From Nigrospora sphaerica (lineage: Eukaryota; Ascomycota; Sordariomycetes; Amphisphaeriales; Apiosporaceae), in assembly GCA_018287875.1 (NCBI GenBank), contig JAGVVL010000001.1, positions 4,278,001-4,342,000 on the forward strand: 64,000 nt of DNA. Reading direction: 5' to 3'. Shown here one piece after another: positions 4,545-32,918 of this stretch; the stretch's first letter is position 1; the number at the start of each line of letters is the position of its first letter. Below the pieces are notes generated by a model. The model searched no databases. It worked only from the letters and a program-made list of their open reading frames with translations, and was not told the origin of the DNA. Both the position numbers and the translations under genes were made by a program.

Positions 4545-4553
4545 TTTTGTAAG
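4545..4553. repeat. Target-site duplication half T1 (left copy)
   Basis: TTTTGTAAG abuts the (ATT)n tail of LINE A. Its partner is not at the other end of LINE A. It is the reverse complement CTTACAAAA at 28073-28081, next to the 5' end of LINE B. The match extends to 13 bp if the adjacent ATTA is counted. Confidence 0.85.
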
Positions 4554-4749
4554 ATTATTATTATTATTATTATTGTTCTTACACCTAGCGACCTATCTAG
4601 GCCATGAGGACCCCCTGCGCATCTTGGCCTAGGAAAACCGTTCCGGGCTGACGTCCGGCCGGGTGAAAAACCTAGGTTCCGCTGCGTCGCACCGCTTCTA
4701 TCTGCACTTTGACCTGCCATACCGAGATCGGGCTCAGCGCGCCCGCTTC

Positions 4750-7700
4750 CTAGCTGATGAGTTGATTCGCCAGCTGGAACATGTCCAGCCTTCCGGAGCG
4801 GAGTAGCCATCTCGCGATAATTCCTGCTTTTCCTGGGGTGTCGAGCATCCTGTCCGTGTCTATCGGTCCTCCTAAAGCTTGGACGAGATGCTCTCGTCTT
4901 TCTCTTTCCCGTGGGCAGAAAACGAGGATATGCCGGACGGTCTCCCTGCCCTGACCGCAGACGCACCAGGGGCTGTCGAAGCCCGGGACCCTACGCTTAA
5001 AAGGAAGTCTCGCAGCCCAATCTTGCCAGTCCTCGCTTGGACGAGGATGGAGCTCTCGGCCTTATAGAGTCCCTTATGGAGCTTGAGGACGTGCTTGCCT
5101 GGCGGCATCTTAGTTGCTGCCGGGGTCCGTGCTGTTCGATTTTGCTGCGCTTGTTGCCATCTTTGAAGCCAGTCTCTCTCCTTAGCCTTATATGTTGAGT
5201 CTCCAGCTAGCCATTCGTCTAGCCACCTCTTACGATCGGGAGCGTCGGGGCCTTTCGGTCTGCGCCGGCGAGTCGGTCTTGTTAGGATCCATCTAGCTGC
5301 GCTATCGCACCTTGCTTGGATAAGTGATGCGATACGCGGCTGTTGGAGCCTCTCTTCCGATGCCGCCACCCTTCTGTTGAGCCACGTGTCTAAGGGGATA
5401 CGTAAGCTTCCGTTTCTAGTACTGCAGTGGCCGTGGCTTTGAAAGCTCCTGTGACCTTTCGGAGGCACTCTGTCTGGACGTCGTTAAGTGCCTTGGCTCT
5501 ATTTTTCGAGATCTGGCGGTGCCACTCTGAAGCTCTATAGCCTATCGCAGACCGTACGACGGCTGTATAGACTTGGCGGGCTCGCTGGAGAGACGCGCCC
5601 CATGTCGAGCCGGCTATCCGGTCTAGAGCATAGACCTGCGTTGCCATCTTCTTCGATATCGACTGGATGTGGACGTCCTAGCGGAGACGTCTATCCACCT
5701 GGATGCCAAGGACGCGGCAGGAGTCTTCTAGTTCGATTTCGTGGCCTTCTAAGGCTATCTTTATGTCCGGACCTTTCCGTCTTCGAGAGAAGTGGACTAG
5801 GTGATATTTCTGGACTGCGAAGGTCATACCGTGGCTAACTGCCCATTCTTTACAGATCCTGTGAGCGGCTTCCAGCTGCTCGCAGGTCTGCTCGGGGTTT
5901 AAACCGAAGCCCACGAGGTTTGTGTCGTCTGCGAAGGCTATAGTGGCTATCCCTGGTATAGCACGGAGGGCCTTGTAGAGACCGGCTGTATAAAGGCAGA
6001 AGAGGATAGGCGATAAAGGTGAGCCCTGCGGGACGCCTGCTAGGACTGGGATCTCGTCCAATTCCTGGCCATCGAAGAATAGCGTAGTGGACCGGTTGGA
6101 TAAGAAGCTTCGGATCCAGCTAATAGTCTATATAGGGACCCTTAGCGCTCGCAGGTTAGCGAGGAGCCTTCCATAGTCGACCGAGTCGAAAGCGCCCGAA
6201 ATATCCAGCGATAGAAGGGTTGCTGCGCCTCTATGTTTCTAGGCTGTGCGGACTAAGTCTGTTAGCAGCCGTAGGGCTGTTTCCGTGGAGCGGCCTTTCC
6301 GGTTGCCCATCTATTCGTCCGGGAGCAGTCCATTCTCTTCGGCAAAGCTAGCTAGCTGTTGCGCTAGTAGGCTCTCGATTGCTTTCCCTATAGTGTTGAG
6401 CAGCGCGATAGGTCTCTATCCGCCGGCTTGGTGATACTCGTTTGGCTGCTTTCCTAGCTTCCGGAGGATAACGGTGACTGCTTTCTGGAACGCTCTTAGA
6501 TAGTATCCTATATGCCAGCACGCTTCCGCTAGGGAGGCTAAGGCCTGGCAGAGGGGCTTTCCTAGGCGTTTAAGGAATCCGTTCGAAGCTGGTCTAGTCC
6601 AAGTGCCTTCCACTGGCCTGCCTTAATAAGGACGTCTTGGACTTGTTCTGCTGTCACCTTGCTGTCCATATCGAGAGGCGCTGCGAGCCGGTTCGTTATT
6701 CGGAAGCCGGTGTACGTAGCCTTAGGGAGGGGATAGAACCTCTCTCGGAAGGCCTCTGTTTTCTCCTTATAGGTCGTTACTTCGCCACGCGGTGTGTAGA
6801 GTGTAGGGACTGCCGGGGGTAACGGCGGTGCTGCTCCTTCCGTTCTTGCCCATCTCGCGATATTCCAGACGCCAGCTGGCTAGCTAGAGGCCTCGTGGAG
6901 CATATGTCTCCAGGACGCCGTCTTAGCTTCTCGGATTGCTTTCTTCTTTGAGAGAGTTGACTGCCAGAGGGCTCGCCAAGCTACGTCCGTCCTATCGGAA
7001 AGCCATATCCGCTGGGCTCTTCGCTCCTTCTCTATAGCTTCTTCTGTCTCGTGGTTCCACTAGGCTTTTCCTCTCCCTTTAGAGTAGCAGAGGGGGGCAA
7101 CTAGGTTGGCTATCCGGGTTAATTCCTTAGTTAACGTTTCAGTGTAGCTATCGATTTCTTCTGGTGTCTCGAGTCGTCCTGGCTGTGGTAGGTGTGCCGC
7201 TTCTGCCTTCGCCTGGTCATAGTCAGCTGTTTTCCAGCTGCGTCGTGGCCTATCTTAGCGGTCTGTATAGAGTCCAGCCACGCGTATCACCTGGGGGAGG
7301 TGATCGGATCCAGCAAATGGGGCATACCCGTCGTAGGCAGCTCGGAGATCGTCCGTGGCCCACGCTAAGTCGATCGTGGAGTCCATGCACCCTCTTCGAG
7401 TCCATGTCGGTGTTCCAGGGGGGGTGATCAGCTGGAGTCTCCAGGATTCTGCTAGCTGGAGCAGCTTGTTGGCTGCATTATGGGGTCGGACGTTGTATCC
7501 TCCCTAGACGGGGTGGTGGACGTTGAAGTCTCCCACGAGGACTGTTTGTCTTGGCTGGGGTTCGGCATAGAGGGCTTCGATAGCGGGTAGGTCCGATCTG
7601 CTGGTGGACCCAGGGGGAGGCGAGTATATGCAGACAACCGTTATAGGACCGTCTAGCAGCTGGATCGTGATATGGCACCTGTCTGGCTGCGCCTTGTAGG

Positions 7701-7935
7701 TCCACTGTGCTAAGGGGAACTTCTTGTTAATATATATGCATGCTCTACCTCCCTCGGGAGCGTATAGGAGGTGGTACGGAGAGGATCTTGGGCAGTAAGT
7801 AGTCGGCATATGTAGGTTTCGCCAGGGCTCTTGGATAGCCAGTACGTCGTATTCTTCGGAGATGGCATCAACTGCCGGGATCTGTGCTTTCTTGCTTTTC
7901 TGCGTGTTCCAATGTAGGATCCTTAGCGCTGTCAT
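4750..7935 (-). pseudogene. LINE A ORF2: endonuclease-reverse transcriptase, broken
   Basis: Starts at ATG 7935, overlapping the ORF1 stop as ATGA. The N-terminal APE-type endonuclease shows LRILHWNTQKS, LAIQEPW, LVGDFNVHHPV and SDHLP, carrying the usual Asn, Glu, Asp/Asn and His residues. The reverse transcriptase shows LSLDISGAFDSVDYGRL, GVPQGSPLSPILFCLY and FADDTNLVGF (catalytic FADD). A C-terminal WCVCGQGRETVRHILVFC motif lies in a shifted frame. Eight in-frame TAGs occur, at HHPV*GG, GKA*WNH, ASS*PAG, AGG*RPIAL, PDE*MGN, RTA*KHR, VPI*TIS and RLR*DVH. There is also one frameshift shared with copy B at a T4 run, and two private single-base losses. It cannot make a full protein as read. Confidence 0.88.
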
Positions 7936-8097
7936 GGTCGAGCGTGGATGCTGTTTAGTGTTGACTCCGGTGTTTCGATGTCCATGTCGTCTATCTCTTC
8001 GTGGGTTCTACTGCGGGTTCTGCCAGTGCTTCTAGTACGGCAGCTGGTTGCTCGACGCTTTCGCGGCTGTACTGTCTGCTAGTCCTCGGCTGTTGGC

Positions 8098-9276
8098 TTA
8101 GGGGGTTCTTACGAGGGCAGTGCGAATCCCTTCAGCAGCCTTAGCGATCTGGACCTGCTCCTGGCGGACTGGACACTCCTTAGACCATGCAGTATGTGGT
8201 CCTCGGTATGCTGGACAGCAGTACCGGCTCTTATTCTCGGCTTCTGGGCATTCTTTATCGTCATGCTTTGTTGAAGAGCAAAGCCCACACCTGCGTGCAT
8301 GGCGGCAGACACGGGCGATATGTCCGTAACGGTAGCAGTGGTAGCATTGCTTAAGCTGGGCTCCTTCGGCGAAGGGTTCGCATAGATAGTAGCTATACTG
8401 CCAAATAAGGCCGTCTCGACATAGCTGTTCCGCTTGTTGAACCGTGGGTACTGCAATATATAGGGCCGTGACCTTCCTAGACGAGTTCTTGGCGTTGCGA
8501 GGGAGCTTGGCCTCCAGGACGTCGATAGGGCCGCCGGGCTGGTTCCGGAGTTGGACTTCTAGCTGCCCTTGGTTCGTCTCTATAGCCTCCTTATTGATGC
8601 CATGAGCCACCACCAGGATCTTTCTCTTCTGGATAAAGGCGTTCTCTCTGAAGGCCTCGGCAGTCCAGGTTAGGTCGGCCTCTAGGGCCTGTTTCTCTGC
8701 TGTTGATTTGCAGGTGACCGCGTAATCTCCGCTAAGGAGCTTCCTGGCTGCCACTGCTGCCTCTCTGCCTATTGCTACGTTAACTTTCCGTACGATCTCT
8801 TCGTAGGTGCGGCTTTCAGTTCCCGCGGCCTTAACCGTGACCTCCCGTTCGTGTCGAGGAGGCAGTGTCTTGGCTACCTGAGGAGCCCTAAGTGTAGGAG
8901 CGGCGGTAGGGGTAATAGCGGCTGCAGCGTATATCTTAGGAGCTTTAATTTCCTTGTGGATAGCCTGGAGCGCGTTCTCGATATCATCGATGCGTCTTTC
9001 GATACTGGTCTGGCTATCTAGTTCCTTAGCTGCCGCCTCTAGGACCGGGATGGCGGCTTGTACGGCTGCGACCAAGGTCGCAGCGTCGGAGTCACCGGCT
9101 AGGAAGCGTTTAAGGTGGTTTACAGTACCGCGTATAGCTTCTGGACTGCGTCCAGGTGTAGTGTTGCTGCTTGGCGATGGCGTTCGCGAGTCTGGAGGCG
9201 ACGGCTCAGGCGGTGGGGCGGCCTGTTGGCGGCTCCCACCACCCGCGTTTTGTTTCACTGGTGGTGGATCGACCAT
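8098..9276 (-). CDS. LINE A ORF1: gag-like RNA-binding protein
   Basis: Open frame of 392 residues from an ATG just inside the element. The N-terminus is Pro/Ser-rich and probably disordered, followed by an Ala-rich helical region (about 50-130), a central conserved domain, and C-terminal zinc knuckles. Knuckle 1 is CYHCYRYGHIARVC and knuckle 2 is CGLCSSTKHDDKEC, both CX2CX4HX4C. A third keeps its later Cys residues but has Tyr for the second Cys (CPAYRGPHTAWSKEC); copy B has Cys there. The frame stops at VRTP. Removing one C from the following C5 run opens about 55 further residues (TVQPRKRRATS...) running to the ATGA overlap with ORF2 at 7932-7935, so the natural ORF1 is probably longer. 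Confidence 0.85.
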   Translation of the reverse strand: MVDPPPVKQNAGGGSRQQAAPPPEPSPPDSRTPSPSSNTTPGRSPEAIRGTVNHLKRFLAGDSDAATLVAAVQAAIPVLEAAAKELDSQTSIERRIDDIENALQAIHKEIKAPKIYAAAAITPTAAPTLRAPQVAKTLPPRHEREVTVKAAGTESRTYEEIVRKVNVAIGREAAVAARKLLSGDYAVTCKSTAEKQALEADLTWTAEAFRENAFIQKRKILVVAHGINKEAIETNQGQLEVQLRNQPGGPIDVLEAKLPRNAKNSSRKVTALYIAVPTVQQAEQLCRDGLIWQYSYYLCEPFAEGAQLKQCYHCYRYGHIARVCRHARRCGLCSSTKHDDKECPEAENKSRYCCPAYRGPHTAWSKECPVRQEQVQIAKAAEGIRTALVRTP

Positions 9277-9389
9277 TTCTAGGGTAAATGAGGCCCTAGG
9301 AACAGTTTCCGGGCTATCCGGTAGGTTTTAGAGTCGTGGTTGTGAAGTTATCGCCGTGTGGGGTCAGTTTCGAAAAGTTTTTTTTCCCT

Positions 9390-9401
9390 GAGGGCAGAGG
9401 G
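9390..9401. repeat. Target-site duplication half T2 (left copy, inverted)
   Basis: GAGGGCAGAGGG lies 4 bp outside the 5' end of LINE A. Its reverse complement, CCCTCTGCCCTC, is found exactly (12 of 12) at 32907-32918, immediately after the tail of LINE B rather than at the other end of LINE A. Confidence 0.88.
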
Positions 9402-10149
9402 ATTGTTATGCATGCGGAATCCCTGAAGTGGCATCTCCTTCTCCCTCCCTCCTGCCCCATGGATAATTTCCTGGAAATGTGAATATGAACACATATCATG
9501 GGTTGGCTGCGGGGATAGCTGCACCTATTCATACAGCATGCCACTCACCTCCACGCTCCGGTGTTGGACCATGACCGGGGCGTCCGGTGCATCCTGCCAA
9601 TTTCCCCAATACGAGGCTGTCAGTTTCGCAAGGCTCGACTGGAACATGGCATGGGTAGATCATGTGGGAGCGCGTCTGCAGGACGAACTTTACACGTCAC
9701 GGGTTAATGGTTGATGACAGGCGAATGTTATAGGTTGTTTGCTGGCGTATTGGGGGTGACTTGGCGTCTGATCTGGCGCTTACACTGGACTCGTTCACCT
9801 GTCAACCCCGTCTACCCACAATATCCCGACGAAACCGTTGGGCGACCGTGCTGCACCTGTATACCGGACTCGATTCCCTGACTGAGCAACCCGGACCGGG
9901 ACCATGGGGGTTGCCGTCACCTCAACAGGGATCAACCAAACGGGGGTGGGGGTGCGTACGAGACGGTCTCCTGTATTCAATAGACGCAAATGGGCCGTTG
10001 GTTGGATGATTGAATACAGTTTATTGTTGGATAGGGAGCATGCAGCCACGGCTTTCGAGGCATGTGTCAAGCAGTATCCAAACGGCAGGGCCTTTATGGT
10101 GACCCGAAAAGAAGCAGAGCAGAAGGCCCCACAACGCAACCCTCTCAAG
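9402..10149. other. Intergenic, no feature seen
   Basis: Host-like, moderately GC sequence between LINE A and the small secreted protein gene. No supported gene. It would be the 3' flank of the secreted protein gene. Confidence 0.5.
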
Positions 10150-10827
10150 CTAAACGTTGGCCACGATCTTGACCAGGATTCCCGAGGGAGTATAACCGGC
10201 GTTCTTATAGGCGGCCGTGTTGTACTGCGCGTTTGAGGCGTTGTACTGGACGGTAAAGGAACCCCCGGCCGTGAGGCAGTCGAGCAGGGCGGCCTTCTTA
10301 GGGCTCGTCAGGCCGCCGTCGATGGTGTTAGCAATGTCCTCGAAGAGTACAGAGCTGTCAACCGCATTATTGACGTGCTTGGCGTACGCGGCGGCCGAGT
10401 TGCGCGTGTACAGGGGCCATTCACCGCAGTCGGGGGCGTCGGCGGCTTTCATAACGAACTCTGTGCACCTGCGTCAGTAGCCCACCCGGGAGCTGCTGGA
10501 CGCATTATGGGCCCGGGGAGGGTCCAAAACTTACGGCGGCCGGCGCGCGTCTCCCGCCCGTACGAGCGCAGGTACGAGGCTATGAAGGCGACGTCGGCCT
10601 CGGCGACGTCCTGGGGCTCGTCGCCGGGGCCGTTGTAGCACGTAAGTGTCAGCGGTTCCTGCCGGTTCGCGTCCTTGTCAGCACCGGGGCCGTGGGACGT
10701 GGCAGCACGGGCAACGAACCTCGTAGCAGACGCGCTTAACCTCGTCCTGCGCCAGGGGCACAGCGGCGGCGGTGGCGGCCACGGCTACCAGAACGGCAGC
10801 CTTGCTCAATGCGGAGGTGGCGAACAT
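10150..10827 (-). CDS. Small secreted cysteine-containing protein, 3 exons
   Basis: Exons 10827-10720, 10673-10535 and 10460-10150 join in frame to 185 residues. Exon 1 encodes a clear signal peptide (MFATSALSKAAVLVAVAATA, then AAVPLAQDE). Intron 1 is only 46 nt, with GTTCGT, GCTGAC branch and AAG. Intron 2 is 74 nt with GTAAGT and a TACTGAC branch; the first AG, three bases past the branch A, must be skipped for the AG at 10461 to keep the frame. The mature protein has four Cys (RVCYE, LTCYN, PDCGEW, LLDCLT), consistent with two disulfides, and ends YTPSGILVKIVANV. I recognise the pattern 'DCGEW-x-LYTR ... TIDGG' only from uncharacterised fungal secreted proteins. Effector-like by size and Cys content; function unknown. 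Confidence 0.75.
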
Positions 10828-11467
10828 GGTGGGAAGACGTGAAGTCGGGGAACGTGGGCGTTGGTGAAGAAGGATGGGACAGAGTAGAGTGGCACTCGAT
10901 CGTCATGCCCCGCGCCGAATCTGACGATGATATTCTCGGTCCGCAGTCCTTATATTTCCCAACCTTGCGTTATTTTCATCTTCTTCCCGTAGCGACCACC
11001 ACTGGAGGTATGAGGGCCGGGTTGGGCGCTCACGTGGTCCAAACATGGCTATTCGGCCTGCATGTCAAGAGCTGAGGTCTAGGGGCGTTGTCGGACACTG
11101 CCCAGGGGGGTCGAAAGAGTCAGCTTCGCTCCCCGAACCGCTCAGTGGGGGTCAAGTGTATTACCTGCCAAAATGACCTTAGCATCAAGTGCCTGGGTAC
11201 GGGCTTACGCCCGAGCGACCCCGCGTCAGCCCGCGTCAGCCCGCATGTTGGTGCCTGTGCCGTCGTGCTGCATACCACGCTTGGCCCCATACCCGGTTGA
11301 ATGCATTAGTGAGATTACCTGCAGGCCCCGGCATGGAAAGGAATATGCGTTGCACGATTAGTAGTCTTGTGATTTCGCGGGCAGGACTGCATATCAATAA
11401 TTTGCTCATCACAAGCGACCTCCCCGTCACTAGTTCTCGTGTAGCCGACAAGGCCCCACCTGCCACA
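10828..11467. other. Intergenic; promoter side of the secreted protein gene
   Basis: No supported gene. The part next to 10827 should hold the promoter of the small secreted protein gene. A short tandem repeat of GCGTCAGCCC units lies at about 11220-11247. Confidence 0.45.
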
Positions 11468-12514
11468 TTAGGCAGGGAGGTGTTGCTTGCAGAAGGCGTC
11501 CAGCCTTACCGCCTCCTCTGGATCCTCATCATCTTCATCGCATTTCTCTTCATGCTTCGGTTCCGGGTGGATGACCTGGACGTCCCAGCGCTCCTGCTCC
11601 CAAGCCGTGACAGGGGGGGTGACTTGTGCCACCTTTTGTGCCCACGACTCCTGTGCTCGCGGGCTTACAGCCAGGGAGGCCTCGCGCTCTGGACTGGCGC
11701 CCATGGCTGCGCTTTCAGGCCAGCGACGAAACTCGCACCATGCTGCCGAGTCGACCTCACCGCCTAGCTGCTGCGAGTGGTCGCCGCCAGCCCGCGAGGC
11801 CGGGCCGTCCATCTCGACCCAACCTTGTAGAAAATACGGTCTCCCCTTGGGAGACCATGCGGCGTCCTCGTACCTCTCGCCGTGGGGAAAGAAGCGGCTG
11901 AATGTTTTGTCCAGTGCAGCTTGAAACATTGGTGCAGTATGAGACTCTGTGTATCGAACCCGGAGGACGGTTGTAGTGAGGCGACCCTCGAGATTCTGCT
12001 CGATCCGAAAGAAGGAACACCTGAATGTAATGAACCGCGAAGTTGGCGAGAAGGAGCCAGAAGAAAGAGAAGACGCAGGCGGCTCTGACCGAGCGGTTGC
12101 CCCGGCGTCGCTGATAGATGGGCCCTGTAGCAACGCGCCGGACAGGAGGGTGGCCTCTCCATCGCCGGCAGGTAGGCATCTGAGAAATTCGGTACAGGCA
12201 GGGGAGCGCTGGAAGCTCTCCAAGTCTTGCAGCGTATTCCAAACTGGGTGATTGTTAGTATGAACCCTACTCACCACGTGAGGCACTCGGGAACACTTAC
12301 CAACAATCAGGGCGGCTTGCGTCGGATCCTCGACCTTTCTCCCCAGATAGACCTTCCTGACTCCGGCGACGCCCTCAAGGGGCCCACGGTGTGCATCCGA
12401 ACGGTTTGTTGACCATTTGGGCCATGGTTGGTCCCTGGGTAAATGGAACGGAGTCCATGTTGTTCTCTTTTGGCCGTAGGAGTTTTGCCTTGCTGTTTGC
12501 CTAATGCGTGCCAT
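11468..12514 (-). CDS. Probable ABM-type (dimeric alpha-beta barrel) protein
   Basis: A well-formed 57-nt intron (12300-12244: GTAAGT, ACTAAC branch, CCCAG) joins KVYLGRKVEDPTQAALIV to VWNTLQDLESFQRSP. This reads like the 'x-x-EDP-x-x-x-L-x-V-x-W-x-S-L-E-x-H-x-x-F-x-x-SP' core of fungal antibiotic-biosynthesis-monooxygenase-like domains. The downstream part has GRPYFLQGWVEMDG and a Pro/Glu-rich tail (WDVQVIHPEPKHEEK) ending at 11468, and looks like a diverged second half. The start given (ATG 12514) is only the best in-frame Met; a true first exon may lie elsewhere. No signal peptide is seen. Cytoplasmic small-molecule chemistry is the usual role of the fold, but no substrate can be named. 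Confidence 0.45.
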   Translation of the reverse strand: MARIRQTARQNSYGQKRTTWTPFHLPRDQPWPKWSTNRSDAHRGPLEGVAGVRKVYLGRKVEDPTQAALIVGKCSRVPHVVSRVHTNNHPVWNTLQDLESFQRSPACTEFLRCLPAGDGEATLLSGALLQGPSISDAGATARSEPPASSLSSGSFSPTSRFITFRCSFFRIEQNLEGRLTTTVLRVRYTESHTAPMFQAALDKTFSRFFPHGERYEDAAWSPKGRPYFLQGWVEMDGPASRAGGDHSQQLGGEVDSAAWCEFRRWPESAAMGASPEREASLAVSPRAQESWAQKVAQVTPPVTAWEQERWDVQVIHPEPKHEEKCDEDDEDPEEAVRLDAFCKQHLPA

Positions 12515-12958
12515 TGGGGAGTCAGGTCTTATTTGCTCTAGACGATTGGTTCTGATGACGATGTTATACAAGAGGAAAAGCTTCAAGCCCGAAGAGGGGT
12601 TTCAGGCAGCAGTTATTAACCTGGTAGGCAGGTGGGGCTTTTCCGGCCTCCGAGAGGCGAGTTGAGCGACAAACATGTGACTAGAAGCTGCGTCGTCCAT
12701 TGGCGGCTTACTAATCATGAAGACTACGCACACGGAAGCCCATCGCCAAGCCGTGTCAGGGGCAGAAGTCGGTATGATATGAAGCTAAGTTGGTAGAAAA
12801 TCCCCCTCCCCCCCCCCGGCGACTGCCTTCCAACCGGCATGACAAGCCATTTGGCCCTGCCACGGCCCAATGTGTCACGGGTGCTTCTCTGCCGAGCATG
12901 CTCTGGGTTCACCAAGACCGAGGGCGGCGGCGCGCCGTTGTCTTTCCAGCAACTGGCG
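12515..12958. other. Intergenic; 3' flank of metalloprotease, upstream of ABM-like gene
   Basis: No supported gene. It includes a C-rich homopolymer tract (about 12805-12818). Any missing first exon of the ABM-like gene would lie here. Confidence 0.4.
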
Positions 12959-14218
12959 CTACGCGGCTTTCGCCCCCAATACCATGTTGTTCTTCGGGCC
13001 GGTCAGTTCAAAGTCCCATTTCTTGTCTTGATCGCCCTCCCCGCCAAACAGATAGTTCATGTGCGTAACGAAGAAGACATAGCTTTCCGGGTTTCGTTTT
13101 GCTTTTTCCGGCTCCGTCCGCGCGAGGTCAATGCACCGTGCAAGATCATCTGCCAGTAGCGCATCAGCAAGGCGTGGGCGCCCAGGGGGGCCGTCGTTGG
13201 CCACTCACATATCTCGTCGCCTTGGAGAAATCCAGTGTCGCCGGCGCCAAAGACGACGTGGAAGGCTTCGTGGAAAAGTGTCATGCTCCGGGGCACGACG
13301 TCCGCGAGGTTGGTGTCCTTTTGGATGGTCCCTCTCATCTCGGCCGATGTGTCCTTTTTCGCCGTGTCTAGGAAGCTCGTAGGGCAAAGAATCATGGCCT
13401 CGATCGGATTCCCGCGCGCAGTCGGCAGGCCGTTGGGATCTTGTTCGAGCTCCGTGATTGCCGCTGTCAGGCCGTAGGATTTGATGGCGGGATCGTCTGG
13501 GACTTCGTTGCAGTAGTTGCCGCCCGTAGGTGAGAAGTAGTATCCGTTGACGTCGGTGCGTTCGCCAGACCACCAGGCATCGTTTGCCGGGTCTTCGTCG
13601 AGGGCCGCCTTGTAAGCCGGCACTCTCTCAATACTGACGACATTGCCGTCGCTGTCCTTGATCTCCGCAGCCTGCCAATCCTGGGCCGGGTCGTTGTCTT
13701 GTTTGCGAACCAGGAAAGTGCTGTCGCAATACAGGTTGATACGTGGGTATAAAGGCGCGTTATCGGCACCCTTCTGGTTTTTGAGGAATTCTTCAACGCG
13801 TTGTAAGTTGTCTAAAGGCATGGCCTGCGTCAGAAAAATAGAATATCGAGACAGAAGGAACCGGGGATCCTAATGTACTCTTGATTCTCTCGATTTGATC
13901 TCTGGTATCTTGAGACGGACGCCCGCTGTTGGGGATGCGAAAGTATTTGTTCAAAGCCCTTCGGATACTGATTTTGTTACGGTAATCGTTGTCAACGTCG
14001 AGGTTTTCGAGGGTGTTGTACAGACTATCGAGAATGTCCTCAAGCATTCTGTCCAGAACGCCTTCCTTTGTAACCCGATCGAAATACGCATCGCAGCCGC
14101 CATTGGATCGACCCGCCTGGACGTTGAATATCTCATCAACGGACACGCCCGAGACTGTACGGGAAAAGATGACGAGTATGGCCGCCACCAGGACCAAAAG
14201 GAAGAGGTGCTTCGCCAT
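12959..14218 (-). CDS. Secreted HExxH zinc metalloprotease, 3 exons
   Basis: Exons 14218-13879, 13811-13209 and 13149-12959 give 377 residues with no frame break. Intron 1 is 67 nt with GTACAT, TTCTGAC branch and TTTAG; an AG just 3 bases after the branch A is skipped. Intron 2 is 59 nt with GTGAGT, GCTGATG branch and GGCAG. MAKHLFLLVLVAAILVIFSR is a signal peptide; I chose this Met over one 12 codons upstream because it starts the hydrophobic core. The zinc site is HEAFH (residues 294-298), followed by GDEIYDLARCIDLA, where an Asp or Glu may be the third ligand, and NPESYVFFVTHMNYLFGG. This arrangement matches fungal secreted zincins related to deuterolysin/Lys-specific peptidases. PRINLYCDSTFL sits upstream as in that group. 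Likely an extracellular protein-degrading enzyme; substrate unknown. It is transcribed divergently from the GH55 gene. Confidence 0.82.
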
Positions 14219-15692
14219 CGCCAGTCGCGAGCTTGGGCAGGTAAAAATAAGCAAAATCGAAGCTTCCCTTTGATGCTACTCGGGCTCTAGCAAGATTCAA
14301 GTTTGGGAGGAAACACCTCGGACCGTGGCGGATTCACAGACGTCACTTTTGACCTCACCTGCTGGGGAGCCCCTCGACCCCTTCCGCCAGCTGCGCTCAT
14401 ATGTGAGGGCCAGGTCCCCCCCCGGAAAAGCAAGCGTGATCTCGTGTTCCCCGGAGCGCGGGACGAACCTGCTAAGACCAGAACGATACCATCTCCGTGC
14501 CCACCCTAGCAGCGAGCTCGCCTCACACGGCAAATTGATAATTGGCGGGAATCGACGTGAACTGTGCTCCTTACCACACCGCAGTCGTGCATCCCAGTGG
14601 TTTCACGCAAAGACTGACAAGGTCGGTGATGCTGCGCCACCCGGGGGAATCACCTGGGTGTGTGATGACTGCATGTGTATCGCGTGAAGGGGATGGCTAT
14701 TCTCGGACTGCATGTAATTAATCAAGCTAAAAGCCTTGGCGCTGCAAGCCCGTGGGGGCGTCAGCCGGGACGAGTACTTCAAAGCAGATACAGTAGGAAT
14801 AGGGACTATACGACATTTGTAACCCCGCAAAGGGGTGTTATCACATGTACTTGCAAGTATACGCCTTACACGGCGTGGTACGCCGACAATCGGCTAGGTA
14901 TAACCTTTGACTGAAATAGTTGAGCTCCTACAGGCCATCCCATACCAAGCCCCTTCTATCATGCCTCCCAACCATACACCACGAGTCTTTTGGATGGGCA
15001 GCGGATGCTCGGAAATGGCCAGCTGTGGAAGCTTGTCGCCACCTCGTCCCAGCAAAGGTAATGCGGCCCTACACCAGTGAGATGAGGTTAGCGGAGAACC
15101 AGATTTCTCCAACAAGCCAAAGTGATAAAGTCAGGTAGGACTTTGAACATCGCCTAGTCCTACGTTGTATGCAGGCTTCGGACTAGCCGTCGGAGGCTGT
15201 GGGACCATGTAGCTGTGCACTGTAGGAAGCTCCAGGCAGCCCGTTCACAGCGCCATAGCCAGGTTCGGCATTCAAGCCTAATCGGGACAGCCATCTGTCA
15301 GCCTTATAGGTCTCGGTCCAAAGTAGAAGGTAACATCCCGTAGGAGTGCAGGGTGGGGGCTGATCCTTTCTGGATAAATGCAAAAACAACCGGGGTCAAC
15401 TACGGGCTACTCCAGCTGACGCGCAATTATACTGACCCCATGCGCCGGACTTTCGAGGGCTGACCATCGGGGACAGGGTTTGTATCATGGGCATGCAAGC
15501 CGGCTTTGCTGGCCGAATTGGGCAATTCCACCGCTATATCGCGATCAAGTGCCTATCGTACGGCCAGCGAACCTTTGCCTGGCGGGCCAGTGATACGGGC
15601 ACCAGACGAGTCCGCATCTACTTATGTCCGTCCCGAGTTCTCGACTTTCTCTTGATTCCCGGGGTTGCCCACAGTCGAGTCCCTGTTGCGCA
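14219..15692. promoter_or_regulatory. Shared divergent intergenic region
   Basis: About 1.5 kb between the divergent starts of the metalloprotease (14218, -) and the GH55-like gene (15693, +). No coding pattern is supported. By position it should hold both promoters; I cannot identify specific factor sites. Confidence 0.4.
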
Positions 15693-21646: not shown

Positions 21647-21661
21647 CACAGTAACAGTGGA
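21647..21661. repeat. Target-site duplication of LINE C, 5' copy
   Basis: CACAGTAACAGTGGA, repeated exactly (15 of 15) at 27364-27378. It marks the 5' border of LINE C. Confidence 0.9.
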
Positions 21662-21775
21662 CACCTTCCTTCCTATTTATTCTTTTCTGGCACCCACTGT
21701 TAGTGCCAGCCTGCTATTTACTGCCAAATCCTTAACAATCCTCTAACGGCGCCTCAACGCCAACCCAGAGGCCAA

Positions 21776-23173: not shown

Positions 23174-23429
23174 CTGCAAGGAACAAGCCAGGGAGGCAAC
23201 ACACTGGAGGAAGCCAGCCCGGGATTAGACACGCTTAATATCGACAGGAGCACCGTCGATGCGGCCATGGAGGACTCAACTTATATGCCCATAGAAGCCC
23301 TAAGAAGACAACCTCAGCCCTCCCAAGAGAATAAGACGAAGCGTAGCCAACGGAACATCCCATGTATCAACTATTATAAATAGGGAAAGCGATCGAACAC
23401 ACTCGACACGCACTAGACTAGGGCGACAA

Positions 23430-26400
23430 GTCCTACAGGTAACGCAGGCTAACGTAGGCAAATCACCGCCGGCACACACGGCCTTACTATAGCAATGCTG
23501 GGAGGATCACATGGACGTGATCCTTATGTAGGAGCCATCCGTTATAAACGACGGCAGGAACAGATTTAACTCGCACCCAGGCTACAGTGCTTACGTTCCG
23601 GTTGATAGCTGGGACAGTATCGCTACTTAGCCCCGGGTTATAACCTATGTCCGGAAAGATAGCAGGCTAAAGACGAGGCAAAAGCGGCCATGGAAGTCTA
23701 GAGACCTCCTATAACTAGAGATCGACCACTTCACCTTGATTAATATTTACAGACCCCCACAAGAACCGCTAAGTCAGGCGACAAGACTCCTCTTAAGCCT
23801 GCGACCACCAACCTAATGCACGGTCGCAGGGGACTTCAACGCATGGTACAGCGCTTGGGACCCAGACGTGCCCCAAACTCGGAACAGGGGGATTGAGGTC
23901 CATAACTGGGCCATCGCTAACGGGCTCAGCTACATTGGCGAGATAGGGACCCCAACATACGCAGCGGGACGAACCATCGACTTAGCCTTCTCTAACATTC
24001 CTTTTACGGCAGCGGAGGTGGACCCAAGGCTTCGGACAGGAGCAGACCACGAAACAATCCGAATCTTAATTCCCCGAAGCGACTAGACACTAGGGACACA
24101 GTTCCAGTACTCGATACCAGATAATAAACTCGAAGCTTTTGCCGGCTTAGTTGCACTCGGCGTATAAAGCCTCACGCCACTTTTCCCAATACCGACGGCG
24201 AATCAACTGGACCAACAGGCAACGGAGATCCTAGCCCTCTTACGTAGAGCGCTAGAAACAATCGGGAAGCAGCCAATTAGGAACGGTCACAATGCGCCAT
24301 GGTGGACCGACGCCTGCCGGGCAGCCCGGGACGCGTTCCGACAAGCAAGACGACACCACTAAGGGGACTGGAGACACCTAGAAGAACGAAGACACTTCCT
24401 CGCGGTGATACGGAGAGAAAAGCGGGAATATTGGCGACGGAAAATCGACTCTGTCCAGTCCGATCAAGACCTATACAGGGTCGTCCAATGGCATAAACTG
24501 CTGCCCGCCTTACAGGCACCTCCTCTAGTTATTGGGGATAAGATAATCGAAGACACGGAAGAGAAGGCACACGCCCTATGTAAGGCCCTTCTAAAGCGAT
24601 TCACGGACGCCGAAGACCTCGAGGACGACCCTCTCAAGATCCCAACGGTACCGCGGCGTATCCTGCCCTGGAGCACCCACATATCTAAGGAGGAGCTGAC
24701 AGCCGCCATAATCGCGGTGAAGAGCACTTCGCCCGGGACCGATGGAATCTCGGTACGGCTGCTAAAAGCATGCTAGGAGGCTATCTAAGAACCCGTACGG
24801 TCCCTCTTCCAAGCCTGCCTACAGATCGGTCACTACCCACGCCCGTTCCGCACAGCCGAGGTCGTGATACTTCGGAAGCCGAATAAGAAAGACCTCTCGA
24901 ACCCCCGCTCCTAGCGACCAATTGCGCTTCTCTCCTGCCTCGGGAAAGGCCTCGAGAGACTCGTAGCTAGACGAATAGCGAACACCACGTTCTTATATAA
25001 GGTGGTCAGCCCACAACAGGCCGGCGCCTTGCCGACACGGGCAGCCTTAGACCTCCTCGCCTGCTTAACACACGAGATCGAGCATTCCCTAGAGAATAAA
25101 GGCACAGCCTCGATTCTCACCGTGGACGTGAAGGGCGCATTCGACGCTACCCTTAAGAGGCGGCTTATACTTCGTATAAGGCAACAGGGTTAGGTAACCT
25201 AGCTTATTAAGTTTATCGGCTCCTTTATAAAAGAGAGACAAGCACGGATCCGACTCGACAACGTCATAACAAAGCCACAGGCAATCTAATGCGGCCTACT
25301 ATAAGGGTCCCCCGCCTCCCCCGTCCTATTCCTTCTATATATCGCAGACATCCTACTCGAGGACATAAGACACCGGTTTAGGTATACGGACGATATATGC
25401 TTTTACCGAGCTAGCAAGTCCCTACACAATAACGCACAACAGCTAGCAAAGGACTTAAACGATGTCCTTAACTGGGGCAAGGGAAACAAAGTCACTATCG
25501 ACCCGGATAAAAGCGAGCTGCTCTATTTCACGTGTATAAAGAACCCAGGGGAACTCCCTAGTGTAACAGCACGGGACCACAGGCTGACTATACACGCCTC
25601 GGTCCAGCCTATACAATGGCTCGGCGTCTGGTTCGACTCGAAGCTACGGTTTACGGAGCACGTGAAGAGGAAAGCGGCACAAGCGCGAAACGTCGTACGA
25701 CACCTTCGGAGCCTAGCCAACACTCAGCAAGGCCCTCCGCCAAGAGCCCTCCGGAAGGCTATCTTTACCTGCGTTCTCCCTATCCTCACATACGGGGCCG
25801 AGGCATGGTACGAGGGACACACGAAGACACGAAATTTCGCTAGCCGACAACACAATACGGAGGTGTCGACATAACAAGAGGCACAAATAGACGAAATAGA
25901 TAGGGTCCTAAGGGAGGCCATACGAGCTGTTCTGCCTATATGGAAGACAACACCGATAGCCACGCTATACAGGGACGCAGGTGTCCCAACGGCGCAAATC
26001 GCACTGGAAGCGGCGTTCTATCGCTTCGGACAACGGCTCCAGTCAATAGACAACAGCTATATGCTAACAGCGCGGACGGCACTGCGGCCCTATCTATCAG
26101 GTCGCGGCTACGGCTCTTACCAGCCTACGCGAACCAGGCTCCAGAGAGCGGCCAGACTCCTACCTACTATCCTAAGGCCACAGTACCTCCTAAAACGTTA
26201 CACGTTTAAACCGGACCCGCAGAAGGACAAGAAAACAGCGGCGAAGGAGTTCATAGCGTGGCAATCAAAGCTTCCCGACACGCACCTCGTCGTCTTCTCG
26301 GACGGGTTAAAAGGACCGGACGAGGCAGTCGGCTGGGGTTTCGTGATCTACAAAAACGGTCGGAAAATAAGACAAGGAAAAGGCCGACTAGGCCTAGCGG

Positions 26401-27161
26401 AAGTCTTCGACGGAGAGGCCATAGGAGCGTGGCAAGGTCTACGCTAAGCCCACCGGATCAACCCAGGCGCGACAATCCACGTTTGCCTAGACAACACCTC
26501 GGTTATCCAAGGCCTCACGGGAACCGCACCGAAAAGCTCGCAAGAAGTTTTCCTCGCCTTTCAGGAGATAGCGACTATAGCCGACGTCCGTATTCGATGG
26601 GTGCCAGGTTATGAGGGGATTCAAGGGAACGAAGAGGCCGATAGGCTAGCGAAAGAAGAGGCCGCACTCCCAGCACGCCGGTCAGCCCAAGCTACGTACA
26701 CAGGCGTGAAGCGACTCCGAAAAACAATTATACGAGAACAATTCACGAAGTGGTGGGAGGAGGCCTCCTAAGGCTGTAAGCGCTACCGAGAGCTTGAATT
26801 CACCGACGCTACCCTTAAGGTGCCTAAGGAGCTGGACCTCCCTAAACGGATACTCCACAACTTTCTCGCGCTCCGATTAGGACACAGGGACTTCGACTGG
26901 TACCATAAGAAATTCCAACATCCCTAAAACGACCGATGCACCTGCCGAATGTTACGAACACCGGAGCATCTAGTCTACTGCCGTAAAACAAGAAGGCAAC
27001 AGGCCCGTTGGCCGAAGTTCGACCCCGAACTGAAAACCTTAAAGGAATACTAGCAACGGCTAATACACGACCTGGAGAGGTTCCAGCTTTTTATAACGTT
27101 AACGAAGTACTACGAGGATATATGCCCACCATCGGTAGGCCGCAGAAGTTACTCTATGTGA
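23430..27161 (+). pseudogene. LINE C ORF2: endonuclease, RT and RNase H, broken
   Basis: Domains in order: APE-type endonuclease (VTQANVGKSPPAHT, ILM*EPS, FTLINIYRPPQEPL, VAGDFNAWYSAWD); reverse transcriptase (LTVDVKGAFDATLKRR, GLL*GSPASPVLFLLY, RYTDDICFY, where most relatives have ADD); and RNase H (LVVFSDGLKGPDEAVGWGF, VFDGEAIGAWQGL, VCLDNTSVIQGL, WVPGYEGIQGNEEADRLA). In the last motif Tyr replaces the expected catalytic His (CAT to TAT). A terminal Cys motif (CTCRMLRTPEHLVYC) follows. At least twelve in-frame TAG or TAA codons, nearly all at Trp or Gln sites, make it non-functional. Confidence 0.85.
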
Positions 27162-27340
27162 AGTCGCAGCTATTCAGACGGAGATAGAGCCGGGAACGAG
27201 CTCGCACGGAGGAGCCACGGAGACGGTTTGACCAAAGGGTTGCCATTGGGCTTGACATGCGAGATATCTCGTGTTCATGTAGATAGACTCTCGCACGCCA
27301 GATGCCCCTCGGGAGGCGGGACACTGTCCCAGTATGGCGA

Positions 27341-27367
27341 TAATACACACACACACACACACACACA
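27341..27367. repeat. (AC)n microsatellite forming the LINE C tail
   Basis: About 11-12 AC units directly before the 3' target duplication. Its position shows it is the 3' tail of the LINE, equivalent to the AAT tail of copies A and B, rather than an unrelated microsatellite. Confidence 0.85.
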
Positions 27368-27378
27368 GTAACAGTGGA
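27364..27378. repeat. Target-site duplication of LINE C, 3' copy
   Basis: CACAGTAACAGTGGA, the exact partner of 21647-21661. Confidence 0.9.
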
Positions 27379-28068
27379 AGATCCTAGGAAAGCACCGGCG
27401 GTGGTTGGCTTCGCGGACAAAGTCCGTCTTGCATGGTCGTAGAGGGTACAGGAGAACCAATCCCGGCATTCCTCCACCAGCGTGAGCCCAGGCGGGCGCT
27501 CACCAGGTCTGTCTGCATTGAGCCAGGACCCTAAGGGCTTTCTGCTAGCTTCCAGACCTTTCAGGGTGAGAGGAGTCGATATCAAGAAGATGTACATCTT
27601 GCTTGAGTGGGTACTTAGCTACCAACCTGAGAAGTACCAAATTGCGAGCTGTGCTGTGCCCGCAACCCGTATGTACGTCTCACATCCCGTGTTTCTGAAG
27701 CAGTTGCATCCCATCCGGCGTAAGCAAGGGGCAGTTGGGTGCTGGTTTTGACGTACGTCATTCGGTAACGCTGGCTGGCAAGGGAAGAGCCATCTGGGGT
27801 CATTTCAACCGGCGCGAGAGGCTTTTGCCAATCAGCGCCAGGGCACACATAGACCTCCCACCTGCAGACAGAGGTTTCCCGTAGGTGATGCCATCCATGG
27901 ATCCTGGAACATGACACAAGCACCTGACTGATGCCATCCACTCCCTTTGTGGACTGGGCATTTGAACAGGGACGAAACCTTACCATCCGCGCGTCCTGGT
28001 TAGGTAGACTCTCGTCATTGAATCGTCTCTTTTAACCATTTTTTAGTACATCACGTACCTTTCTATCT
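27379..28068. other. Intergenic, no supported gene
   Basis: Short sequence between LINE C and LINE B. It would have been continuous with 20500-21646 before LINE C inserted. No recognisable product. Confidence 0.45.
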
Positions 28069-28081
28069 TAATCTTACAAAA
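28069..28081. repeat. Target-site duplication half T1 (right copy, inverted)
   Basis: TAATCTTACAAAA, the reverse complement of the sequence at the LINE A tail (4545-4557). It lies 3 bp before the A8 run that begins LINE B. Confidence 0.85.
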
Positions 28082-28193
28082 GAGAAAAAAAACTTTTCGA
28101 AACTGACCCCACACGGCGATAACTTCACAACCACGACTCTAAAACCTACCGGATAGCCCGGAAACTGTTCCTAGGGCCTCATTTACCCTAGAA

Positions 28194-29538
28194 ATGGTCG
28201 ATCCACCACCAGTGAAACAAAACGCGGGTGGTGGGAGCCGCCAACAGGCCGCCCCACCGCCTGAGCCGTCGCCTCCAGACTCGCGAACGCCATCGCCAAG
28301 CAGCAACACTACACCTGGACGCAGTCCAGAAGCTATACGCGGTACTATAAACCACCTCAAACGCTTCCTAGCCGGTGACTCCGACGCTGCGACCTTAGTC
28401 GCAGCCGTATAAGCCGCCATCCCGGTCCTAGAGGCGGCAGCCAAGGAACCAGATAGCCAGACCAGTATCGAAAGACGCATCGATAATATCGAGAACACGC
28501 TCCAGGCTATCCACAAGGAAATTAAAGCTCCTAAGACATACGCTGCAGCCGCTATTACCCCTACCGCCGCTCCTACACTTAGGGCTCCTCAGGTAGCCAA
28601 GATACTGCCTCCTCGACACGAACAAGAGGTCACGGTTAAGGCCGCGGGAACTAAAGGCCGCACCTACGAAGAGATCGTACGGAAAGTTAACGTAGCAATA
28701 GGCAGAGAGGCAGCAGTGGCAGCCAGGAAGCTCCCTAGCAGAGATTACACGGTCACCTGCAAATCAACAGCAGAGAAACAGGCCCTAGAGGCCGACCTAA
28801 CCTGGACTGCCGAGGCCTTCGGAGAGAACGCCTCTATCCAGAAGAGAAAGATCCTAGTGGTGGCTCATAGCATCAATAAAGAGGCCATAGAAACGAACCA
28901 AGGGCAGCTAGAAGTCCAACTCCGGAACCAGCCCGGCGGCCCTATCGACGTCCTGGAGGCCAAGCTCCCTTGCAACGCCAAGAACTCGTCTAGGAAGGTC
29001 ACGGCCCTATATATTGCAGTACCCACGGTTCAACAAGCGGAACAGCTATATCGAGACGGCCTTATTTGGCAGTATGGCTACTATCTATGCGAACCCTTCG
29101 CCGAAGGAGCCCAGCTTAAGCAATGCTACCACTGCTACCGTTACGGACATATCGCCTGTGTCTGCCGCCATGCACGCAAGTGTGGGCTTTGCTCTTCAAC
29201 AAAGCATGACGATAAAGAATGCCCAGAAGCCGAGAATAAGAGCCGGTACTGCTGTCCAGCATGCCGAGGACCACATACTGCATGGTCTAAGGAGTGTCCA
29301 GTCCGCCAGGAGCAGGTCTAGATCGCTAAGGCTGCTGAAGGGATTCGCACTACCCTCGCAAGAACCCCCTAAGCCAACAGCCAAGGACTGGCAGACAGTA
29401 CAGCCGCGAAAGCGTCGAGCAACCAGCTGCCGTACTAGAAGCACTGGCAGAACCCGCAGTAGAACCCACGAAGAGATAGACGACATGGACATCGAAACAC
29501 CGGAGTCAACACTAAACAGCATCCACGCTCGACCATGA
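28194..29538 (+). pseudogene. LINE B ORF1: gag-like protein, broken
   Basis: Counterpart of the 392-residue ORF1 of copy A, interrupted by TAA (28410) and TAG (29319). It retains all three Cys/His knuckles, including CPACRGPHTAWSKEC, which is damaged in A. A +1-type frame change at a C5 run (about 29366-29370) leads into EPPKPTAKDWQTVQPRKRR and on to a stop at 29536-29538 that overlaps the ORF2 start (ATGA). In copy A the Trp of KDWQTV is TAG. The two copies therefore carry different private lesions in ORF1. Confidence 0.85.
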
Positions 29539-32500
29539 CAGCGCTAAGGATCCTACATTGGAACACGCAGAAAAGCAAAAAAGCACAGATCCCGGCAGTT
29601 GATACCATCTCCGAAGAATACGACGTACTGGCTATCTAAGAGCCCTGGCGAAACCTACATATGCCGACTACTTACTGCCCAAGATCCTCTCCGTACCACC
29701 TCCTATACGCTCCCGAGGGAGGTAGAGCATGCATATATATTAACAAGAAGTTCCCCTTAGCACAGTGGACCTACAAGGCGCAGCCAGACAGGTGCCATAT
29801 CACGATCCAGCTGCTAGACGGTCCTATAACGGTTATCTGCATATACTCGCCTCCCCCTGGGTCCACCAGCAGATCGGACCTACCCGCTATCGAAGCCCTC
29901 TATGCCGAACCCCAGCCAAGACGAACAGTCCTCGTGGGAGACTTCAACGTCCACCACCCCGTCTAGGGAGGATACAACGTCCGACCCCATAATGCAGCCA
30001 ACAAGCTGCTCCAGCTAGCAGAATCCTGGAGACTCCAGCTGATCACCCCCCCTGGAACACCGACATGGACTCGAAGAGGGTGCATGGACTCCACGATCGA
30101 CTTAGCGTGGGCCACGGACGATCTCCGAGCTGCCTACGACGGGTATGCCCCATTTGCTGGATCCGATCACCTCCCCCAGGTGATACGCGTGGCTGGACTC
30201 TATACAGACCGCCAAGACAGGCCACGACGCAGCTGGAAAACAGCTGACTATGACCAGGCGAAGGCAGAAGCGGCATACCTACCACAGCCAGGACGACTCG
30301 AGACACCAGAAGAAATCGATAGCTACACTGAAACGTTAACTAAGGAATTAACCCGGATAGCCAACCTAGTTGCCCCCCTCTGCTACTCTAAAGGGAGAGG
30401 AAAAGCCTAGTGGAACCACGAGACAGAAGAAGCTATAGAGAAGGAGCGAAGAGCCCAGCGGATATGGCTTTCCGATAGGACGGACGTAGCTTGGCGAGCC
30501 CTCTGGCAGTCAACTCTCTCAAAGAAGAAAGCAATCCGAGAAGCTAAGACGGCGTCCTGGAGACATATGCTCCACGAGGCCTCTAGCTAGCCAGCTGGCG
30601 TCTGGAATATCGCGAGATGGGCAAGAACGGAAGGAGCAGCACCGCCGTTACCCCCGGCAGTCCCTACACTCTACACACCGCGTGGCGAAGTAACGACCTA
30701 TAAGGAGAAAACAGAGGCCTTCCGAGAGAGGTTCTATCCCCTCCCTAAGGCTACGTACACCGGCTTCCGAATAACGAACCGGCTCGCAGCGCCTCTCGAT
30801 ATGGACAGCAAGGTGACAGCAGAACAAGTCCAAGACGTCCTTATTAAGGCAGGCCAGTGGAAGGCACTTGGACTAGACCAGCTTCCGAACGGATTCCTTA
30901 AACGCCTAGGAAAGCCCCTCTGCCAGGCCTTAGCCTCCCTAGCGGAAGCGTGCTGGCATATAGGATACTATCTAAGAGCGTTCCAGAAAGCAGTCACCGT
31001 TATCCTCCGGAAGCTAGGAAAGCAGCCAAACGAGTATCACCAAGCCGGCGGATAGAGACCTATCGCGCTGCTCAACACTATAGGGAAAGCAATCGAGAGC
31101 CTACTAGCGCAACAGCTAGCTAGCTTTGCCGAAGAGAATGGACTGCTCCCGGACGAATAGATGGGCAACCGGAAAGGCCGCTCCACGGAAACAGCCCTAC
31201 GGCTGCTAACAGACTTAGTCCGCACAGCCTAGAAACATAGAGGCGCAGCAACCCTTCTATCGCTGGATATTTCGGGCGCTTTCGACTCGGTCGACTATGG
31301 AAGGCTCCTCGCTAACCTGCGAGCGCTAAGGGTCCCTATATAGACTATTAGCTGGATCCGAAGCTTCTTATCCAACCGGTCCACTACGCTATTCTTCGAT
31401 GGCCAGGAATTGGACGAGATCCCAGTCCTAGCAGGCGTCCCGCAGGGCTCACCTTTATCGCCTATCCTCTTCTGCCTTTATACAGCCGGTCTCTACAAGG
31501 CCCTCCGTGCTATACCAGGGATAGCCACTATAGCCTTCGCAGACGACACAAACCTCGTGGGCTTCGGTTTAAACCCCGAGCAGACCTGCGAGCAGCTGGA
31601 AGCCGCTCACAGGATCTGTAAAGAATGGGCAGTTAGCCACGGTATGACCTTCGCAGTCCAGAAATATCACCTAGTCCACTTCTCTCGAAGACGGAAAGGT
31701 CCGGACATAAAGATAGCCTTAGAAGGCCACGAAATCGAACTAGAAGACTCCTGCCGCGTCCTTGGCATCCAGGTGGATAGACGTCTCCGCTAGGACGTCC
31801 ACATCCAGTCGATATCGAAGAAGATGGCAACGCAGGTCTATGCTCTAGACCGGATAGCCGGCTCGACATGGGGCGCGTCTCTCCAGCGAGCCCGCCAAGT
31901 CTATACAGCCGTCGTACGGTCTGCGATAGGCTATAGAGCTTCAGAGTGGCACCGCCAGATCTCGAAAAATAGAGCCAAGGCACTTAACGACGTCCAGACA
32001 GAGTGCCTCCGAAAGGTCACAGGAGCTTTCAAAGCCACGGCCACTGCAGTACTAGAAACGGAAGCTTACGTATCCCCCTTAGACACGTGGCTCAACAGAA
32101 GGGTGGCGGCATCGGAAGAGAGGCTCCAACAGCCGCGTATCGCATCACTTATCCAAGCAAGGTGCGATAGCGCAGCTAGATGGATCCTAACAAGACCGAC
32201 TCGCCGGCGCAGACCGAAAGGCCCCGACGCTCCCGATCGTAAGAGGTGGCTAGACGAATGGCTAGCTGGAGACTCAACATATAAGGCTAAGGAGAGAGAC
32301 TGGCTTCAAAGATGGCAACAAGCGCAGCAAAATCGAACAGCACGGACCCCGGCAGCAACTAAGATGCCGCCAGGCAAGCACGTCCTCAAGCTCCATAAGG
32401 GACTCTATAAGGCCGAGAGCTCCATCCTCGTCCAAGCGAGGACTGGCAAGATTGGGCTGCGAGACTTCCTTTTAAGCGTAGGGTCCCGGGCTTCGACAGC

Positions 32501-32722
32501 CCCTGGTGCGTCTGCGGTCAGGGCAGGGAGACCGTCCGGCATATCCTCGTTTTCTGCCCACGGGAAAGAGAAAGACGAGAGCATCTCGTCCAAGCTTTAG
32601 GAGGACCGATAGACACGGACAGGATGCTCGACACCCCAGGAAAAGCAGGAATTATCGCGAGATGGCTACTCCGCTCCGGAAGGCTGGACATGTTCCAGCT
32701 GGCGAATCAACTCATCAGCTAG
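29535..32722 (+). pseudogene. LINE B ORF2: endonuclease-reverse transcriptase, broken
   Basis: One continuous frame from ATG 29535 (overlapping the ORF1 TGA) except for stops, then a frame change at the T4 run 32470-32473. It has the same endonuclease (HWNTQKS, GDFNVHHPV, SDHLP), RT (DISGAFDSVDY, GVPQGSPLSPILF, FADDTNLV) and C-terminal CVCGQGRETVRHILVFC motifs as copy A. TAG stops shared with A include 29964, 30408, 31053, 31158 and 31791. The private TAA at 29637 replaces Gln in IQEPW. Unlike A, the run at 32074-32078 has five C and keeps the frame through the connection region. Confidence 0.88.
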
Positions 32723-32906
32723 GAAGCGGGCGCGCTGAGCCCGATCTCGGTATGGCAGGTCAAAGTGCAGATAGAAGCGGTGCGACGCAGCGGAACCTAG
32801 GTTTTTCACCCGGCCGGACGTCAGCCCGGAACGGTTTTCCTAGGCCAAGATGCGCAGGGGGTCCTCATGGCCTAGATAGGTCGCTAGGTGTAAGAACAAT
32901 AATAAT

Positions 32907-32918
32907 CCCTCTGCCCTC
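32907..32918. repeat. Target-site duplication half T2 (right copy)
   Basis: CCCTCTGCCCTC, immediately after the AAT tail of LINE B. It is the exact 12-bp reverse complement of 9390-9401 at the 5' side of LINE A. Confidence 0.88.

Follow-up and report, generated by a model that had tools for sequence, protein, structure and literature searches.

How do two retrotransposon copies come to stand on opposite strands with the halves of their target duplications exchanged between them? The question is raised by a stretch of 64,000 nucleotides of Nigrospora sphaerica (contig 1, 4278001-4342000), here called the window, in a genome of 51.6 Mb on 33 contigs. The initial annotation had described two LINEs in this window as inverted arms of 4.8 kb that are nearly identical, and alignment of the two gives 99.0% identity over about 4.8 kb in opposite orientation. 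The copies and their flanks are, in window positions:

4554..9389, minus strand: LINE A, full length, with (AAT)7 as the tail on the low-coordinate side (ends placed by comparison with other copies)
28082..32906, plus strand: LINE B, full length, with an (AAT)3 tail and endonuclease and reverse transcriptase pieces (Exo_endo_phos_2, RVT_1)
4545..4557, plus strand: target duplication P, half on the 3' side of A (TTTTGTAAG is certain, while ATTA possibly belongs to the tail)
28069..28081, plus strand: target duplication P, half on the 5' side of B (TAATCTTACAAAA)
9390..9401, plus strand: target duplication Q, half on the 5' side of A (GAGGGCAGAGGG)
32907..32918, plus strand: target duplication Q, half that follows the B tail (CCCTCTGCCCTC)

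The flanks pair crosswise, as had been claimed. Positions 4545-4557 are the reverse complement of 28069-28081 over 13 bp, 9 of which are certain as ATTA/TAAT possibly belongs to the tail, and 9390-9401 is the exact reverse complement of 32907-32918 over 12 bp. Neither copy has a match of its own of 8 bp or more, and the tails are individual, with seven AAT units in A and three in B, which also agrees with the earlier description. When uninterrupted P or Q sites were sought across the genome, only the two halves of each were found; P and Q are single copy, so there is no empty site in this genome, and this counts against an inversion.

The family to which A and B belong combines Exo_endo_phos_2 and RVT_1 pieces with (AAT)n tails and variable duplications, and is thus a family of non-LTR retrotransposons (LINEs), which we take, from host and layout, to belong likely to the Tad1 clade. 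Its copies were sampled from the best 42 of 248 and the best 41 of 402 candidate matches, and as the genome holds 325 exact 3' ends of the family, this census covers a minority of the copies. Copies were taken at 38 further loci; 35 of these have both ends and make up, together with A and B, the 37 copies compared below, while L022, L033 and L036 each lack one end and stand outside the 37. L047 and L048 are window neighbours with no copy among the matches listed. Three copies (L010, L025 and L044) are absent from the 34-copy tables used for difference counts, A/B substitution polarity and the random-gap test, and are included again in the comparisons of substitution-free tracts. The family does make target duplications: in 15 of the 37 copies, the two flanks of the element match each other over at least 9 bp (9-14 bp once tail letters are removed). 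If the match is required to lie beside the tail, 14 of the 37 qualify at a threshold of 8 bp. The own duplication of L029 is visible by eye, outside the count of 15. Neither an own duplication of at least 9 bp nor a reciprocal partner is found in 18 of the 37, among them L029 and also L021, which has a one-sided partner. The absence of own flanks alone is therefore common and counts against reading it as a sign of inversion; in these 18 copies, the partner or the duplication may have been lost, mutated or not sampled.

As regards the sampled copies themselves, L010 (contig 18, 272800-278900) lacks an internal part, about element 808-3190, and is flanked by its own duplication, which measures 13 bp with tail letters counted in, and at contig 5, 1026550-1031480, a full-length minus-strand LINE (L130/L133) lies inside the tail of a plus-strand LINE, the plus-strand 3' end standing on both its sides. 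L038, L040, L043 and L045 are mosaics of subfamilies, with a 5' half from a diverged subfamily and a 3' half that is A/B-like after about element 2210.

Crosswise matches of at least 9 bp beside the tail occur in 12 of 1332 ordered pairs of the 37 copies. Eight of these consist of poly-A (seven, all with L015) or of LINE-tail sequence (one, L026/L046), and the other four are A to B (12 bp), B to A (9 bp), L020 to L040 (10 bp) and L040 to L020 (13 bp), so that two pairs are reciprocal, A/B and L020/L040. In 100 shuffles of the flanks, the mean was 0.85 ordered pairs of at least 9 bp and 0.01 reciprocal pairs, as opposed to the two observed. It is therefore extremely unlikely that the crosswise matches are coincidences or reflect a favoured insertion sequence. 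The initial annotation had allowed that the flank matches could be element ends in other genomic copies, but the flank letters of A and B (CCCTCTGCCCTC, CTTACAAAA) stand at the element ends in 0 of 35 other copies and thus are not part of the element, which speaks against target preference as well. In favour of such a preference, L032, L088 and L089 have the flank ATACCCCACAACA in common at the insertion point, due to either a preferred target or insertion into one repeat family. Here, L032 (minus) and L088 (plus), both on contig 5, match crosswise over 15 bp. The pair was rejected because no run without substitutions exceeds 64 bp (rank 693 of 780), because a reciprocal match turned up neither in a pattern search nor on inspection of the L088 5' junction by eye, and because L089 has 13 bp of the same flank. 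A crosswise match of 15 bp is thus possible without an exchange tract, which has to be counted against the inversion reading.

The second reciprocal pair lies on contig 5, with L040 at 4019374 on the plus strand, L020 at 4081584 on the minus strand and about 52 kb between the copies. Its crosswise matches are 14 and 14 bp when tail letters are counted in. If the 5' flank of L020 and the 3' flank of L040 are joined, the product aligns through the joint at 18 of 25 places among the matches listed, over at least 490 of 539 bases and with 68-91% identity, to another repeat (best at contig 10, 163395-163933). The second site is an older LINE copy that is split, with element 3594-3439 beside L040 and 3451-2793 beside L020. 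As the joined flanks are collinear with uninterrupted copies of a repeat and the older LINE is split, the exchange in this pair is supported independently of the short duplications, and the collinearity is also at odds with coincidence. The copies have the 5' halves of two subfamilies and an identical tract of 678 bp in the middle (element 2440-3119), which is their longest substitution-free run, with 285 differences at 4812 sites in all; in the sub-window 2440-3120, the copy next nearest to L020 has 15 differences. Five and six differing sites are found in the two windows after the tract, and these may be later mutations of a tract that once was longer.

A third pair, also on contig 5, is probably a further exchange. 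The 5' flank of L021 (851 kb, minus strand) matches the 3' flank of L081 (872.5 kb, plus strand) over 15 bp beside the tail, 12 of them without tail letters, and the copies are about 18 kb apart. L081 is cut at element position 1654. The reciprocal duplication was sought and not found, and the pair is one-sided, which counts against it. The longest substitution-free run is 971 bp (element 2993-3963), with 108 differences at 3159 sites, and in the sub-window 3120-3600, the copy next nearest to L021 differs at 37 sites.

The comparison of crosswise partners included 80 extra 3' flanks beyond the 37 copies. Among 19 further 3' flanks on eight contigs (7, 10, 11, 12, 13, 16, 18 and 33), no partner was found for the copies without own duplication. 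L010/L107 (13 bp) was rejected because L010 is flanked by a duplication of its own and the match stands apart from the tail, and the 9-bp cross matches of L040/L018, L031/L042 and L031/L037 lie at least 30 bases inside the 3' flank and are not crosswise.

If A and B had recombined, a trace may be expected within the elements, and the distribution of differences between them is highly uneven:

30277..32892, plus strand: identity tract of B (element 2196-4811) without any substitution relative to A, the presumed crossover or conversion region
4580..7193, minus strand: identity tract in A, partner of the B tract, with two 1-bp C-run deletions relative to B
28347..30276, plus strand: diverged part of B, with all 43 counted substitutions to A

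All 43 substitutions are transitions and lie in element 13-2195, with none in 2196-4811; element positions up to 12, with one A/B difference in the alignment, are outside the substitution counts. When 43 sites were placed at random, no gap of 2600 arose in 200000 trials. Judged by the majority of 16 related copies, 26 of the substitutions are derived in B and 17 in A, and 25 of the 43 are C-to-T next to A on one strand, which we take to be a RIP-like context. Decay of this kind is seen in LINE B (28082-32906), where the frame with the fewest stops has 22, 16 of them TAG; in the 3' half, which is free of substitutions, A has the same stops. A deletion of 14 bp is common to A and B and absent from 32 of 32 other copies, so that both may go back to a single source. 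Among the other full copies of the table, L011 is closest; over element 2210-4816, it is separated from A by 62 transitions and 2 transversions. Among the 40 copies scored, the best other match to the A/B tract reaches 97% identity, as a lower bound. The copy next nearest to A has 16 differences in the sub-window 2440-3120 and 6 (L039), 6 (L011) and 3 (L011) in the three sub-windows after 3120, so other copies come near A in single sub-windows, a point against the exchange, and none does over the whole tract. Over element 1-2210, 25 transitions separate A from L011 and 43 separate it from B. As the tract is identical and, in the 5' half, B is not nearer to A than L011 is, the parental halves of A and B are inseparable and a chimeric structure is not demonstrable, which also counts against the exchange.

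The longest substitution-free run, taken over compared sites only, was determined for all 780 pairs of 40 copies, with a median of 111 bp and a 95th percentile of 325. A/B ranks first with 2614 bp, L021/L081 second with 971 and L020/L040 eighth with 678. Element 2993-3119 falls within the tracts of all three pairs. Runs of at least 500 bp occur in 3 of the 55 pairs on the same contig and opposite strands, and these are exactly A/B, L020/L040 and L021/L081; elsewhere, they occur in 1 of 50 pairs on the same contig and strand and in 7 of 675 on different contigs. Eight of the 11 pairs with such runs are thus not crosswise, which counts against the inversion reading, as the tracts are not unique to crosswise pairs; yet they are present in all three. 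One of the other pairs, L031 (contig 5) and L037 (contig 13), has a substitution-free tract of 588 bp (element 2794-3381), 336 differing sites otherwise and, at a distance from the tail, a flank match of just 9 bp, and is a possible case of interchromosomal gene conversion.

Considering all this, it is very likely that a crossover between the inverted copies A and B, together with gene conversion, inverted the segment between them, and that this recurred in the second and probably the third pair. The two LINEs would first have arrived by separate insertions, on opposite strands and about 19 kb from each other, and each would have produced a target duplication. A crossover within the 3' half of the elements would then have inverted the segment and swapped the inner duplication halves, and gene conversion with or after the exchange would have left 2.6 kb free of substitutions. 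The same process would have taken place again on contig 5, over about 52 kb and probably over about 18 kb. Crosswise flanks, opposite orientation and identity tracts are directly visible, and from them we infer the crossover in the tract, the inversion of about 9402-28068 and the conversion of the 3' half. The crossover between inverted repeats proposed in the initial annotation has gained support from a second reciprocal and a one-sided third pair, each on one contig in opposite orientation, from the collinear flanks of the second pair and from the long substitution-free tracts in all three.

Crosswise flanks of the same kind would also be produced by the assembly, if the true chromosome had the other orientation and the assembler had been misled through the nearly identical arms. 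Such a flip is unlikely. In its favour, A and B are free of substitutions over 2.6 kb, and of the two C-run deletions of A, one is common to L018, while the other, found in no other copy of the table, could be a read error left uncorrected. Against it, contig 1 has a length of 9.29 Mb, which implies long reads that span repeats, and as a read of about 3 kb links the outer flank to the first difference, a flip at A/B would be possible only if reads were shorter than about 3 kb. The second and third pairs, identical over at most 678 and 971 bp and with differences at 285/4812 and 108/3159 sites, offer too little to mislead long reads, and yet they are crosswise. A misassembly by repeat collapse is hence implausible for these two pairs and improbable for A/B. 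Identical crosswise duplications should also arise if two LINE cDNAs were being integrated simultaneously at two sites and became linked crosswise by their far ends, with no crossover of resident copies involved. This is very improbable, as an inversion at integration predicts no shared identity tract, and the mosaic halves and the 678-bp middle tract of the second pair fit a homologous exchange instead.

The segment that was likely turned around by the crossover contains the following:

9402..28068, no strand: the putatively inverted segment, with a HEAFH protein ORF, a GH55-type gene and LINE C
16114..20499, plus strand: GH55-type (pectin-lyase-like) gene (PF12708, 9.1e-76)
21700..27000, plus strand: LINE C, with RVT_1 and RNase_H pieces (ends approximate)

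An island with a GH55 gene, a metalloprotease, a secreted protein and a further LINE had been proposed. The GH55 gene is borne out by the Pfam match, and its product is 77% identical to its best relative (Annulohypoxylon), followed by proteins of Trichoderma and Pseudogymnoascus. The RVT_1 and RNase_H pieces likewise agree with LINE C, which had no match to B in blastn and is a different LINE. As to the metalloprotease, the ORF at 13057-13821 (minus) has a HEAFH motif, which presumably suits such an enzyme, but no Pfam match lies there. No counterpart of the secreted protein was recognized, 10 interior ORF pieces being without Pfam match. Antisense to the GC-rich GH55-type gene, a 1484-aa ORF without Pfam match (16063-20517, minus) is probably a shadow ORF. 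Further along the window, about 18 kb (38001-56000) have 21-36% G+C between parts at 46-55%, with repeats of about 190 bp in and around this stretch (at 34859, 41345, 46374 and 56312). A DDE_1 transposase ORF with Psq and Tc5 DNA-binding domains is found at 36756-37682 (minus), and a retrotransposon-type integrase ORF at 62075-63061 (minus).

Galileo is a DNA transposon of the P superfamily. Exchanged or mismatched duplications have been used at inversion breakpoints for Galileo (PMC2775673), for BuT5 (PMC3355041) and for L1 and Alu (PMC2603318), the comparison here being with excerpts of these three papers. In inversion 2z3 of Drosophila buzzatii, Galileo copies of opposite orientation lie at the breakpoints with exchanged duplications, like A and B, and ectopic recombination was inferred (PMC2775673). 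There, the uninverted chromosome was examined, whereas A/B are LINEs around a 19 kb segment seen in a single genome. In inversion 2s of Drosophila mojavensis, the exchanged duplications at BuT5 are inverted complements, again like those of A/B; BuT5 is another transposon family, and the inversion is fixed in the species (PMC3355041). The L1 and Alu inversions of human and chimpanzee likewise involve retrotransposons with unmatched duplications, and recombination leaves chimeric copies there; the present case concerns a fungal LINE with an (AAT)n tail and RIP-like decay, in which the likely exchange tracts are visible as substitution-free runs (PMC2603318). The mechanism is thus already known from Drosophila Galileo and primate L1/Alu, and what is new is the case of a fungal LINE family. 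Among the matches listed in the open-licence literature, no paper on exchanged duplications between fungal LINEs was found, which is not a proof of absence.

With respect to timing, the lack of any transition in a perfect duplicate of 2.6 kb suggests that the A/B event took place later than the RIP-like mutation of the 5' half, and that it is younger than the RIP-like mutation of the rest of the copies. The argument is weaker for the second and third pairs, as their tracts are difference-free by definition and L020/L040 differ just after the tract. Being perfect duplicates, the identical tracts of 680-2600 bp are ideal RIP targets, yet they have no C-to-T change. As a tentative and rather doubtful extension, the inversions might be recent and probably vegetative, dating from the time since the last sexual cycle competent for RIP, and the A/B segment could flip today. 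If this were true, the segment with the GH55-type gene would flip back and forth, and nuclei or isolates would differ in its orientation.

The interest of the finding lies in the recurrence of probable LINE-LINE inversion alongside RIP-like decay. Crosswise duplications make inversions readable from a single genome, without need for a relative. The two clear pairs and the probable one, with their visible likely tracts, indicate where exchanges between LINEs may occur, and a comparison of the tracts with the surrounding RIP-like mutation indicates when they may occur, which would make vegetative ectopic recombination in RIP fungi testable.
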